Part shown: in pieces, positions 15,567-20,848 of the stretch | How the letters are laid out: every line of letters begins with the position of its first letter | Numbering within the stretch: position 1 is the stretch's first letter | Assembly: GCA_032139905.1 (NCBI GenBank) | Contig: JAQJDB010000006.1 | Span: forward strand, 372,001 to 436,000 | Direction of reading: 5' to 3' | Length of the DNA stretch: 64,000 nt | Source: Nitrospira sp. MA-1 | GTDB taxonomy: Bacteria > Nitrospirota > Nitrospiria > Nitrospirales > UBA8639 | Notes under the pieces: generated by a model | Seen by the model: the letters and a program-made list of their open reading frames with translations, nothing else | Told to the model about the DNA's origin: nothing | Databases searched by the model: none | Program-made: the position numbers and the translations under genes

Positions 15567-16445
15567 TTAGGGTTGAATGTCCCAGTCGGTGGAGACTGTG
15601 TCAGGGGAGCTGATTCCAATCAGGGTTACCCCATTCATCAGCCAGACTTTCACCTCACCTGTCGTTGTATTCTTCAAGACCACGTCCGCTTTCCCATCTC
15701 CACTCATATCCCCCACCTGCTCAATCTCCCACGCCGAGGCGATGCCGCCTAAAACTTTAGACGACGCAATAGAGGTCCCATTCATCAGCCAGATGGACAC
15801 GATGTCGCTTGTGTCATTCTTCCAGATAAGGTCGGCCTTCCCATCGCCATTGAAATCGCCCATACCGGCAATCTTCCAATCCGTGGAGGTGCTGCCGGGA
15901 AAGCCCGTGTTGGTCACTATGGTTCCATTCATCACCCACACTGCCACGGCTCCATTGCTGCCGTTACGCCATATGACATCGGCCTTGCCATCCCCAGTCA
16001 CATCTCCGACCCACTTGATTTGCCAGTTGAGCGGCACCCCGCCCGGGAAGCCGACGGCGGTCCGGAGAGTCCCATTCATCAGCCAGATGGCCGTGTTACC
16101 GTCACTGCTGTTACGCCATATCAAATCGGCTTTGCCATCGCCGTTGACGTCCCCGACGGCCTGAATGACCCAGGTGGTCGGCGCACTGCCGGGAAAACCC
16201 GTGGACGTGACGGTCGCGCCGTTCATCAGCCAGATCGCCACCGTGCCGTTGGTGCTATTGCGCCAGATGACATCGGCCTTGCCATCCCCTGTTACATCGC
16301 CGATTCCCGCGATCTGCCAGTTGAGCGGCACCCCACCCGGGAAGCCGACCGAGGTCCGGACGGTCCCATTCATCAGCCAGATGGCCGTGCTCCCGGTAGT
16401 CGCGTTACGCCATAATAAATCGGCTTTCCCGTCCCCATTGAGATC
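15567..16445 (-). repeat. Tandem 147-bp coding repeats, six copies
   Basis: Five full 147-bp units and a 141-bp last unit (plus stop). Units 1 and 3 (GGVPLNWQI type) and units 2 and 4 (GFPGS type) resemble each other more than their neighbours do, giving a 294-bp higher-order period. Long near-identical stretches lie 294 bases apart, for example around 16021 and 16315. Confidence 0.85.
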
Positions 16446-16991
16446 ATATGGGGAATTCGTGGGCAACATGATTGGAGGAGGGACTGGTCCACTCCTGGTA
16501 TCTGTTCCCGTCTGAGTCCACTGACAGGTATCACCAACGAGATCCCGACCAGCAAACGAGTAGGTCAAGGTATTGCCCGCAAGGGAACCCGTTAAAGTGG
16601 ATGTGCCGCTAAACCAAAACCCGCCGTTGAGGGTAACCACATAGGGGCATGAGGCGCTCACCGTCCCATCAGGTGAAACGGAGCCTGAGCAGGTCACTGT
16701 TTGTACAGCTGAAAATCCGTTATCAACCACGGTATCCACCTGTGTGAGGCCCCAATTGGCGCCAGTTTGATTGGTAATAGTGTAAGTATCCCCTCCAGGA
16801 TCGTTGTCGGGACCGTTATCATCTGGATCCTGACATCCCGTTGTTGAGCTGCTACTGGGGCCATCTGTCCAGGTGCCTCGAATATCCGGCACTGTCCCCG
16901 CATGCAGGCTCTCTATGGCCAAAGGCAGAAAAAGTAATCCATTTGCTAAACCCAGGATCACCGGTAAATATGTCCAATTTTTGAGCTTCAT
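15567..16991 (-). CDS. Secreted FG-GAP/VCBS-type repeat protein
   Basis: A 474-residue exported protein. A signal peptide (basic MKLKNW, hydrophobic core, cleavage likely after LHA near residue 31) leads to a Ser/Asp-rich segment with several cysteines, then six repeats of 49 residues that fill the C-terminal 290 residues. Each repeat opens with D-x-[NTS]-GDGKAD, a calcium-binding loop of the EF-hand/FG-GAP type, and contains W-[RK]-N and IWLMNG. Such repeats build beta-propellers on cell surfaces. The start at ATG 16991 follows AGGAGG. A longer frame upstream lacks a signal peptide at its start. A terminator follows. Likely function is surface or matrix binding (inference). Confidence 0.85.
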   Translation of the reverse strand: MKLKNWTYLPVILGLANGLLFLPLAIESLHAGTVPDIRGTWTDGPSSSSTTGCQDPDDNGPDNDPGGDTYTITNQTGANWGLTQVDTVVDNGFSAVQTVTCSGSVSPDGTVSASCPYVVTLNGGFWFSGTSTLTGSLAGNTLTYSFAGRDLVGDTCQWTQTGTDTRSGPVPPPIMLPTNSPYDLNGDGKADLLWRNATTGSTAIWLMNGTVRTSVGFPGGVPLNWQIAGIGDVTGDGKADVIWRNSTNGTVAIWLMNGATVTSTGFPGSAPTTWVIQAVGDVNGDGKADLIWRNSSDGNTAIWLMNGTLRTAVGFPGGVPLNWQIKWVGDVTGDGKADVIWRNGSNGAVAVWVMNGTIVTNTGFPGSTSTDWKIAGMGDFNGDGKADLIWKNDTSDIVSIWLMNGTSIASSKVLGGIASAWEIEQVGDMSGDGKADVVLKNTTTGEVKVWLMNGVTLIGISSPDTVSTDWDIQP

Positions 16992-17354
16992 GTGAAATGC
17001 CTCCTGTTGAATCCCTGACAGTTGCTTTCCACCGTTGAGTCTGAAATAAGCAAAAAATAAACCTTTTGTAGGACACAATTCTCATGGGCGTTAATCTCTT
17101 GTAGAAATGCACCCTTGTAGAATGGGGCGCATGAAAAGACTACCTGTGGCACAGGGAGCCTTTGTAGAAAAAATGTCCAAACCATCATGCCACTTTGTCC
17201 AACTACTGCCCCCTATCTGCTACGACAGTTGGCGTTAACATCTTCCTGGTTGAATACGGTCCATTAATTTCTTGCTATCCCCATTAAGAGGGTCGTACTC
17301 GATTTTTCTGTCATGATCATTAAGGCAAACAACAAAATCATTCCCACCTGGGTT
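16992..17354. other. Leader and promoter region of the FG-GAP gene
   Basis: No gene recognised. The AGGAGG ribosome-binding site of the FG-GAP gene lies at its left edge. The open frames further right are antisense to neighbours or lack start signals. Confidence 0.4.
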
Positions 17355-17858
17355 TTATCCGGTATGAAAGGGTTGAAGGAAAGAACCGGACATTCCATCA
17401 TTTTTGAAAATCTGATGACAGGATTGTTTGAGGGATTGCAGATTACACGGCTTAAAAAAGAAGCCCTGAGCTCCTTCCGATAGAAGCTGACGAAGGGCTG
17501 GGAGATCTAACGCATCGGACATTGCCAGCACAGGAATTTGGTACTCTAACCATCGTAATTCATCGAGCATGGTTCGCCCGTTCATCACGGGCATATGCAT
17601 ATCCAACAAAATTCCATCGACCCTATAATTCATCACCACGTCCAGGCCTTCCCGTCCATTTCCTGCCACATACACGTGATATTCCGAATCTTCAAGGACA
17701 GTTTTTAGTAACCCTGCCACTGAAGGATCATCTTCAACCACCAAAATATACGGCTGGTTTTAGGTGATATTTAAGGTGCAATGTGCTGGGTCTGGTGTCT
17801 CAAGTTCTGGAATTTCCCATACATCCGTCCAATGGGAAGAGGAATGCAGGTGCATCAT
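17355..17858 (-). pseudogene. Response-regulator receiver protein interrupted by an in-frame TAA
   Basis: Reading from ATG 17858, which has a well-spaced AAAGGAC ribosome-binding site, gives 32 residues. A TAA at 17760-17762 follows, and then in the same frame NQPYILVVEDDPS, the normal first strand of a CheY-like receiver. The rest is complete: acidic pair EDD, phospho-acceptor Asp in LLDMHMPVMNG, a Ser in the Thr position (AMSDALD) and the lysine in FFKPC. The only start codons after the stop are TTG 17744 or GTG 17741, with no Shine-Dalgarno, and they would cut into the first strand. The gene is therefore read as a full receiver protein with a nonsense mutation. Start at an alternative codon or a sequencing error are alternatives. 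No output domain follows. Confidence 0.7.
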
Positions 17859-18152
17859 GAATGTCCTTTCTTTCCGATTGATCATACCTATTAAAATCGA
17901 GAATTCTATTAGCGGGTTTTAAACCTTTTCCCTGGAATATCTGTAACAAAGCCGTTCAGTGAATTTGTCCGGGGGGTCGCTGGATAACAACCGGGAAAGT
18001 GGATGGCTCACTTCTGCTGGCCGCATGAAATGTCCTCAAGTTTCTTGATCAGTAAAATCAAGTGGAGGGGAAATACCTATACCAAAAAAGTGGGGCGCGT
18101 AACTCAAGGGAAGTTCCGCCCCCCCTTTCTGAGAGCCTGAATATGGTGTTGT

Positions 18153-18506
18153 TCATGTAAGAGAAGTCTGCGGTTGGGCCTCCACGGCTTCTTTTTCAGA
18201 TTGATAGATAGGAACAATCTCTGAGAGGTGGGTCGATTCTAAGAGATATTTGACCGTAGGTTGCGGGCTGACGATGCTGAGGTGAACGTGATTGGGCCTC
18301 ATCTTGTGATACCAAAGGAACAATTGTCCAAGTCCCATCGAATCAATCCAGGTAATCTCAGCAAAATTCAGGATGATATGTTGACAGCCCATTTCCTTTG
18401 CTCCGAGGATGGCGACTTCAAGGCCTAACTTGGAACTGGCATCAAAACTTCCTGAGAGGTCCAGTATTTTTGTGTTCTGCTGACAATGCTCTCTAACGGC
18501 AAGCAT
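18153..18506 (-). CDS. STAS-domain protein (anti-sigma factor antagonist-like)
   Basis: A 117-residue single STAS domain. It opens with the usual beta strand (TKILDLSGSFDASS) and has IILNFAEITWIDSMGLGQLF at about 45-64. The serine of DSMGLG is the position phosphorylated in SpoIIAA/RsbV, so control by a serine kinase (anti-sigma factor or switch kinase) is expected, although no kinase gene is adjacent. GGAGGA precedes the ATG. It lies about 300 bases upstream of the broken response regulator on the same strand. A second STAS gene sits near 22.2 kb. Confidence 0.85.
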   Translation of the reverse strand: MLAVREHCQQNTKILDLSGSFDASSKLGLEVAILGAKEMGCQHIILNFAEITWIDSMGLGQLFLWYHKMRPNHVHLSIVSPQPTVKYLLESTHLSEIVPIYQSEKEAVEAQPQTSLT

Positions 18507-19159: not shown

Positions 19160-19320
19160 ATGAACCTCCAGACAAGAAGATCCGACAACCTTCATTTATT
19201 AAATTGTGGCCCCTCACACAAGAATTCTCCTATCCGAGCCTTCTTGCTATTCACGACCATCTTAATACCAACCGGATGTTTAAAGCATAAGAGTTTACAA
19301 GGGACGGTTGGTCTTATTCG
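19160..19320 (+). pseudogene. Small ORF interrupted by the IS3-family element
   Basis: The frame from ATG 19160 has a hydrophobic stretch ending in IPTGC, a lipobox-like site, and runs into the left end of the insertion sequence. Removing the element and one copy of the TCG target repeat joins it in frame to 20599-20638 and a TAA, giving a 66-residue protein. There is no good ribosome-binding site, so this could be chance. If real, it was a small lipoprotein-like gene destroyed by the insertion. Confidence 0.3.
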
Positions 19321-19409
19321 AGAAGTGGTCCCCAGTCCTTGGACAGAATAATGAGGATGCTAAGTGAAATCTTCTGCGCTATATTTGTTTGCAACGAAAG
19401 GAGCAGAAG

Positions 19410-19700
19410 ATGGCACGACGATCCCGACGGAATCATTCCCCAGCGTTTAAGGCCAAGGTGGCCTTGGCCGCCGTCAAGGGCGAACGCACGTTGGCGGAAT
19501 TGGCCGAGCAGTTTGACGTACATCCGAATCAGATCCAAGATTGGAAGAAGCAGCTGCTGAGCAAGGCAGAACATGTTTTTGGCGCCAGTCTCGTTGCTGC
19601 TGCCGACCATGAACAGGTCCAGCAGAAGCTGCATGCCAAGATTGGCCAGCTGACCATGGAGAAGGATTTTTTAGCCACCGCGCTCGGACCCGGCCGATGA
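19410..19700 (+). CDS. IS3-family transposase OrfA (DNA-binding subunit)
   Basis: A 96-residue protein with a helix-turn-helix (SPAFKAKVALAAVKGERTLA, then LAEQFDVHPNQIQDWKKQLL) and a C-terminal leucine-zipper-like helix. These recognise the element's ends and mediate multimerisation. The start is ATG 19410 behind AAAGGAG, not the upstream TTG of the longer frame. Its last codons overlap orfB (ATGA), and the frame carries a TTTTTTA slippery heptamer shortly before its stop. Confidence 0.9.
   Translation: MARRSRRNHSPAFKAKVALAAVKGERTLAELAEQFDVHPNQIQDWKKQLLSKAEHVFGASLVAAADHEQVQQKLHAKIGQLTMEKDFLATALGPGR
19667..19673 (+). other. Programmed -1 ribosomal frameshift site (T TTT TTA) of the IS element
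   Basis: The heptamer lies in orfA phase as T-TTT-TTA, the X-XXY-YYZ pattern. The orfB frame lies at -1 and is open upstream through this site. Slippage would make the OrfAB fusion transposase, as known for the IS3 family. Confidence 0.65.
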
Positions 19701-20542
19701 CTGAGCGCAAAGCGATGCTCAAGGCCCAGCAAGGACTTTCGGTGACTCGTCAATGTCAGCTGTTAGCCGTGCCGCGTTCGAGTGCCTATGCACGGCCCCA
19801 GGATGTCTCAGCGGCAGACCTTGTTTTGATGCGCCAACTCGACGAGCTCTATCTGAAATGGCCGTTCTATGGCAGCCGTCGCCTGTGTGTTGAGCTTCAA
19901 CAACAGGGCCATAGAGTGAATCGTAAACGCGTTCAACGGTTGATGCGCAAGATGGGGATCCGAGCGATTTACCCGAAGCCGCGAACGAGTCAACCAGGAC
20001 TGGGGCACAAAATTTATCCCTACTTATTAAGAGGCCTGAGAATTGAACGTCCAAACCAGGTGTGGGCGAGTGATATCTGTTATATCCCGATGGCCAAGGG
20101 GTTCATGTATCTCACCGCCATCATAGACTGGTACTCACGTCGGGTGTTGGCGTGGCGCGTTTCGAATACGCTGGAAACGGATGCCTGTGTGGAGGCGCTG
20201 GAAGAAGCCCTCTTGCGCTATGGGGCGCCAGAGATCTTCAATACGGATCAGGGTGCCCAATATACCAGTGAGGCATTCACCGCGACACTCAAAGATCGTG
20301 GGGTGCAAATCAGTATGGATGGTAAGGGGCGTTGGGTCGACAACGTATTCGTCGAACGACTATGGCGCAGTGTGAAGTATGAGGACGTGTACCTGCGAGC
20401 CTATGAGACGCCCGCAGCGCTACGGGCTGGGCTGACTGGCTATTTCACGTTCTATAACACGGAACGCCGTCACCAGTCCTTGAATCGACAGACACCGGAT
20501 ACCGTATATTGGGCAGGTCCAATGGCAACGAAGGCGGCATAA
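19697..20542 (+). CDS. IS3-family transposase OrfB (DDE catalytic subunit)
   Basis: A 281-residue integrase-like protein. It begins with an HTH_21-type segment (WPFYGSRRLCVELQQQG, RVQRLMRKMGIRA). The rve catalytic core follows, with Asp in ASDICYIP, Asp in NTDQGAQYTS and Glu in DNVFVERLWRSVKYE, spaced as a D,D(35)E triad. The C-terminus keeps FYNTERRHQSLN. It is likely produced mainly as an OrfAB fusion by frameshifting. An ATG overlapping the orfA stop could allow separate synthesis. Confidence 0.93.
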   Translation: MTERKAMLKAQQGLSVTRQCQLLAVPRSSAYARPQDVSAADLVLMRQLDELYLKWPFYGSRRLCVELQQQGHRVNRKRVQRLMRKMGIRAIYPKPRTSQPGLGHKIYPYLLRGLRIERPNQVWASDICYIPMAKGFMYLTAIIDWYSRRVLAWRVSNTLETDACVEALEEALLRYGAPEIFNTDQGAQYTSEAFTATLKDRGVQISMDGKGRWVDNVFVERLWRSVKYEDVYLRAYETPAALRAGLTGYFTFYNTERRHQSLNRQTPDTVYWAGPMATKAA

Positions 20543-20848
20543 TGCCCAGCAGAAGTTTCACTTAGCGCCCTGTCCAGAAATCGGGGTCCACTTCTTCGTA
20601 CCCACCGAATTGACGCGTTTAGGAAAGAACCGGTATAAGGCTGGTTGTTACAGGATGGAAAGAGATTGCCCACCTAACGGATTTAAAAATTATCGCACCA
20701 AAAATTAAGACATGAAAAGATAATAAATGGTAAAGTGCATTTCATTAAGACCATGAGCGTGATAGTTTTGCTGGGGTAGCATTTATTTCATGCCAGGCAG
20801 ATGGTACTGCTTGACGAACCCACCTAACTCATTGAAAATACAGTAAAA

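Follow-up and report, generated by a model that had tools for sequence, protein, structure and literature searches.

A derived in-frame stop codon separates a CheY-like receiver from its start codon in Nitrospira sp. MA-1 and probably marks a young pseudogene

In-frame stop codons are common in bacteria and mostly short-lived, and the genes that carry them show dN/dS ratios that are raised yet below 1; many of these genes have been argued not to be pseudogenes, and reduced expression has been suggested as one possible role of the stops (Belinky et al. 2021, PMC7918605). The two-component gene sets of myxobacteria differ mainly by lineage-specific loss, and small lesions there give rise to pseudogenes (PMC4603909). 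Here we describe a response regulator gene interrupted by one TAA in a stretch of 64,000 nucleotides (G000:C6:372001-436000, hereafter the window) from Nitrospira sp. MA-1, a Nitrospirales genome of 4.76 Mb in 7 contigs with a completeness of 99.98%. The nearest relative is Nitrospirales bacterium NPIRA06 (G003; contig BQIZ01000058.1), in which the gene order is the same on both flanks of the locus. As detailed below, the gene is very probably a recently inactivated one, encoding a single-domain CheY-like response regulator that is dispensable in the genus.

A first-pass annotation of the window had placed an AAAGGAC site, ATG 17858 and 32 codons ahead of a TAA at 17760-17762, followed in the same frame by a CheY fold. 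This layout was confirmed from the sequence, and the locus comprises the following features, all on the minus strand:

18153 to 18506, minus strand: STAS-domain gene (PF01740), the upstream flank and gene-order marker, intact and 99% identical in G003.
17863 to 17869, minus strand: Shine-Dalgarno-like AAAGGAC, seen in the sequence and conserved in G003.
17763 to 17858, minus strand: N-terminal leader of 32 codons, with homology to that of the intact orthologues (sequence and orthologues).
17760 to 17762, minus strand: in-frame TAA from AAA (Lys), the codon found in G003, G017, G009 and G002.
17355 to 17759, minus strand: stand-alone CheY-like receiver, otherwise open, with its stop at 17355-17357 (PF00072, E 8e-25; orthologues).
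17739 to 17744, minus strand: TTG-GTG, the sole candidate restart codons close to the stop, within strand beta-1 and lacking a Shine-Dalgarno site (sequence).
15567 to 17078, minus strand: FG-GAP repeat protein gene (PF13517/PF01839), the downstream flank of the locus.

The AAAGGAC (17869-17863) lies 4 bases before ATG 17858, from which 32 sense codons specify the leader MMHLHSSSHWTDVWEIPELETPDPAHCTLNIT. The TAA (17762-17760) ends this leader and the frame then resumes as NQPYILVVEDD, remaining open for 134 codons up to its own TAA (17357-17355). In a Pfam profile search this second part matched PF00072 (Response_reg) only (E 8e-25), with no output domain. The acidic pair (EDD), the phospho-acceptor Asp (LLDMHMP), the Ser (AMSD) and the Lys (FFKP) are all present, in agreement with the first reading of the receiver motifs as intact. 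By these sequence features the receiver half is that of a single-domain, stand-alone CheY-like response regulator.

As regards the surroundings, a sigma-70 promoter scan and an Rfam search returned nothing relevant. The number of repeats, or their alignment, in the FG-GAP gene differs among the window, G003 and G018, as split matches and offset repeats show. An IS3-type insertion (HTH_Tnp_1 and rve transposase) occupies positions 19320-20595 on the plus strand and is missing at the corresponding position in G003. The genome holds another three full-length, near-identical copies of this element and several diverged ones, and the element has therefore probably been active recently.

In G003 the leader and the receiver form one open frame, MMHRHSSPHWTDVWEIPDLKTPDPTHCTSNIAK-NQPYILVVEDD, and their pairing in the window is therefore not due to chance. 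The G003 gene has a conserved leader, and recognisable versions of it occur in G017, G009 and G002 (consensus roughly NPE.ETP...HDH....K); a chance juxtaposition with an unrelated leader was thus discarded, and these relatives did not show the arrangement that had been put forward as fatal to the case, a start right at the receiver with no conserved codons upstream. At the stop itself the window reads ACC TAA AAC CAG and G003 reads GCC AAA AAC CAG, so that the codon differs by one A-to-T substitution and the length is unchanged. A frameshift or an indel was rejected as the lesion, length and frame both being preserved relative to G003. Comparison of the codon in close relatives, the check suggested at the outset, gave AAA (Lys) in G017, G009 and G002 as well, and TAA occurs at this site in none of the orthologues found among 20 genomes of the genus. 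These alignments indicate that the window TAA is derived, by a single-base nonsense change from AAA; of the origins envisaged for a nonsense mutation (CAA or AAA), the four relatives thus support AAA as the ancestral codon. Separately, the C-terminal tail of the G003 receiver (L146 10480-10540) diverges abruptly after about residue 150 from the tails of the window, G017 and G018, as does the 3' flank of the G003 gene, which suggests that this part of G003 was replaced locally or recombined. A literature search on NPIRA06 found no paper.

The same locus is decayed in two further genomes, each represented by a single contig. In G018, the gene has several in-frame stops and small deletions, the acidic pair is changed (EDK) and the Lys region is lost; in G010, a deletion of about 250 bp has removed the C-terminal half of the receiver. 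The DNA of the flanks is about 90–92% identical to the window in G003 and about 77–85% in G018, G010 and G017. As the gene is intact in G003, the nearest relative, the lesion in the window arose separately from those in G018 and G010. The gene is therefore broken in three of the five genomes that have the STAS-receiver order (window, G003, G017, G018 and G010), and it has been lost repeatedly in the genus, with independent lesions in G018 and G010.

Between the window and G003, leader plus receiver differ by 16 nonsynonymous and 11 synonymous changes (dN/dS 0.40), compared to an N:S of about 127:281 for twelve neighbouring genes pooled. N:S is thus raised relative to the neighbours for leader plus receiver (Fisher p = 0.005) and for the receiver alone (9:7, p = 0.05), although these counts are small, do not separate the periods before and after the stop, and show an excess that is not clearly confined to the window branch. 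As the pairwise dN/dS is nonetheless about 0.36-0.40, and hence <1, selection was at work during at least some of the period after the divergence from G003. Four receiver changes are found in the window only (W58S, G59E, H78Y and L135F), at sites otherwise conserved, or nearly so, in the orthologues. The G003 copy is also fast-changing, which suggests that the gene was weakly constrained even before the stop appeared.

We propose that the ancestral product was a protein of about 167 residues, in which the receiver was preceded by a short, variable N-terminal leader, and that one A-to-T change converted lysine codon 33 from AAA to TAA. A ribosome starting at 17858 would now yield a 32-residue peptide that ends just before the receiver and, with no ribosome site ahead of the TTG and GTG, little or no receiver would be expected. 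The change may have struck a gene under weak constraint, one lost repeatedly in a genus whose genomes each hold dozens of other receivers; a receiver-domain search of the MA-1 genome gave 71 matches, including a paralogous domain 62% identical. Against a pseudogene, it must be said that the receiver has a single lesion and keeps all its catalytic residues. Another receiver of this genome, at G000:C7:691396-691640, is a fragment with a frameshift, and is one of three damaged receivers.

We weighed this young pseudogene against readings in which a receiver is still made. The gene would be intact, with AAA as its true codon, if the TAA came from an error in sequencing or assembly, or from a variant present in a minority of the assembled population, as might be thought from a lesion of one base in an A-rich run (TAAAA vs AAAAA in G003) within a frame that is open elsewhere. 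However, the substitution leaves the length unchanged, unlike most homopolymer errors, which add or remove bases; the assembly is in 7 contigs and 99.98% complete, and the neighbouring genes compared with their G003 counterparts show no visible breaks in the window. Random errors would also not pick a gene that two relatives have inactivated independently and that has other unusual changes in the window only, and an error is in our view unlikely. Small amounts of receiver could also arise if ribosomes, having terminated, reinitiated at TTG 17744 or GTG 17741, or if there were basal readthrough of the TAA; the receiver would then have reduced function, and the stop would act as a crude down-regulator. 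The otherwise open receiver with its active-site residues, the TTG located 15 bases past the stop and thus within reach of a terminating ribosome, the dN/dS <1 and the precedent for low-level expression (PMC7918605) are consistent with this. However, both codons are preceded by CACCTAAAACCAGCCGTATATT, which contains no Shine-Dalgarno site, and a restart there would, judging from the CheY fold, delete the beginning of strand beta-1; G017 has TTA in place of the TTG, which is therefore not a conserved start, and the stop is private to the window among the relatives examined. Such residual synthesis is quite improbable, and it is very unlikely that the stop is a tolerated dimmer, with a receiver supplied at a few per cent by TTG/GTG restart or basal readthrough and the low dose kept by selection. 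If it were, the same strategy would apply to a second receiver gene of this genome (G000:C7:1510720-1511052, minus strand), which is otherwise open and has one private in-frame TAA where G003 and G019 have CAA (Gln); close relatives of this second receiver were found in only 3 of the 20 genus genomes.

Ochre suppression or a recoded TAA was rejected, as no suppressor tRNA (anticodon UUA) is present among the 44 tRNA genes found in the genome, a list that includes no Ile-GAT or Ala-TGC tRNA and may be incomplete. Programmed readthrough, in which a downstream RNA structure would allow the synthesis of a short and a long product, could draw on the 120 nt past the stop, which fold slightly better than shuffles (z -2.1). 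However, the same helix occurs in G003 (z -1.6), whose frame has no stop, and G017 lacks it (z 0.4). The helix is therefore a property of the coding sequence rather than of the stop, and was dismissed as a readthrough signal. With TAA in none of the orthologues found among the 20 genus genomes, we hold programmed readthrough to be extremely improbable. Taken together, the regulated readthrough or reinitiation that the first-pass annotation had also entertained is unsupported: no relative examined shares the stop, the tRNAs found include no suppressor, the TTG and GTG have no ribosome site and the gene is dead in two relatives.

As a young nonsense pseudogene, the locus would show a signalling gene at an early stage of loss: the sister copy is intact, the window copy has one nonsense change, and two more relatives have decayed copies at the same position in the chromosome. 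It would also illustrate the turnover of receiver gene sets in the Nitrospirales. An annotation begun at the TTG would show a working response regulator where there is probably none. The case is one of ordinary gene loss rather than a novel mode of decoding a stop codon. It fits both the frequent, short-lived stops of bacteria (PMC7918605) and lineage-specific loss (PMC4603909). Like the cases of Belinky et al. 2021 (PMC7918605), it has a single, derived and recent stop in an otherwise open gene, with a pairwise dN/dS that is raised but <1; that study focused on stops shared by at least two genomes, whereas the window stop is found in one genome and two relatives have lost the gene independently. 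As in the myxobacteria (PMC4603909), a signalling gene is lost in a lineage-specific manner, although the phylum is different and the window lesion is a point nonsense change and not an indel. Finally, the receiver half matches the PF00072 profile and keeps the active-site residues like single-domain CheY-like regulators but, in contrast to these, the ancestral protein would have carried a short, poorly conserved N-terminal leader, and in the window the receiver is severed from its start codon.
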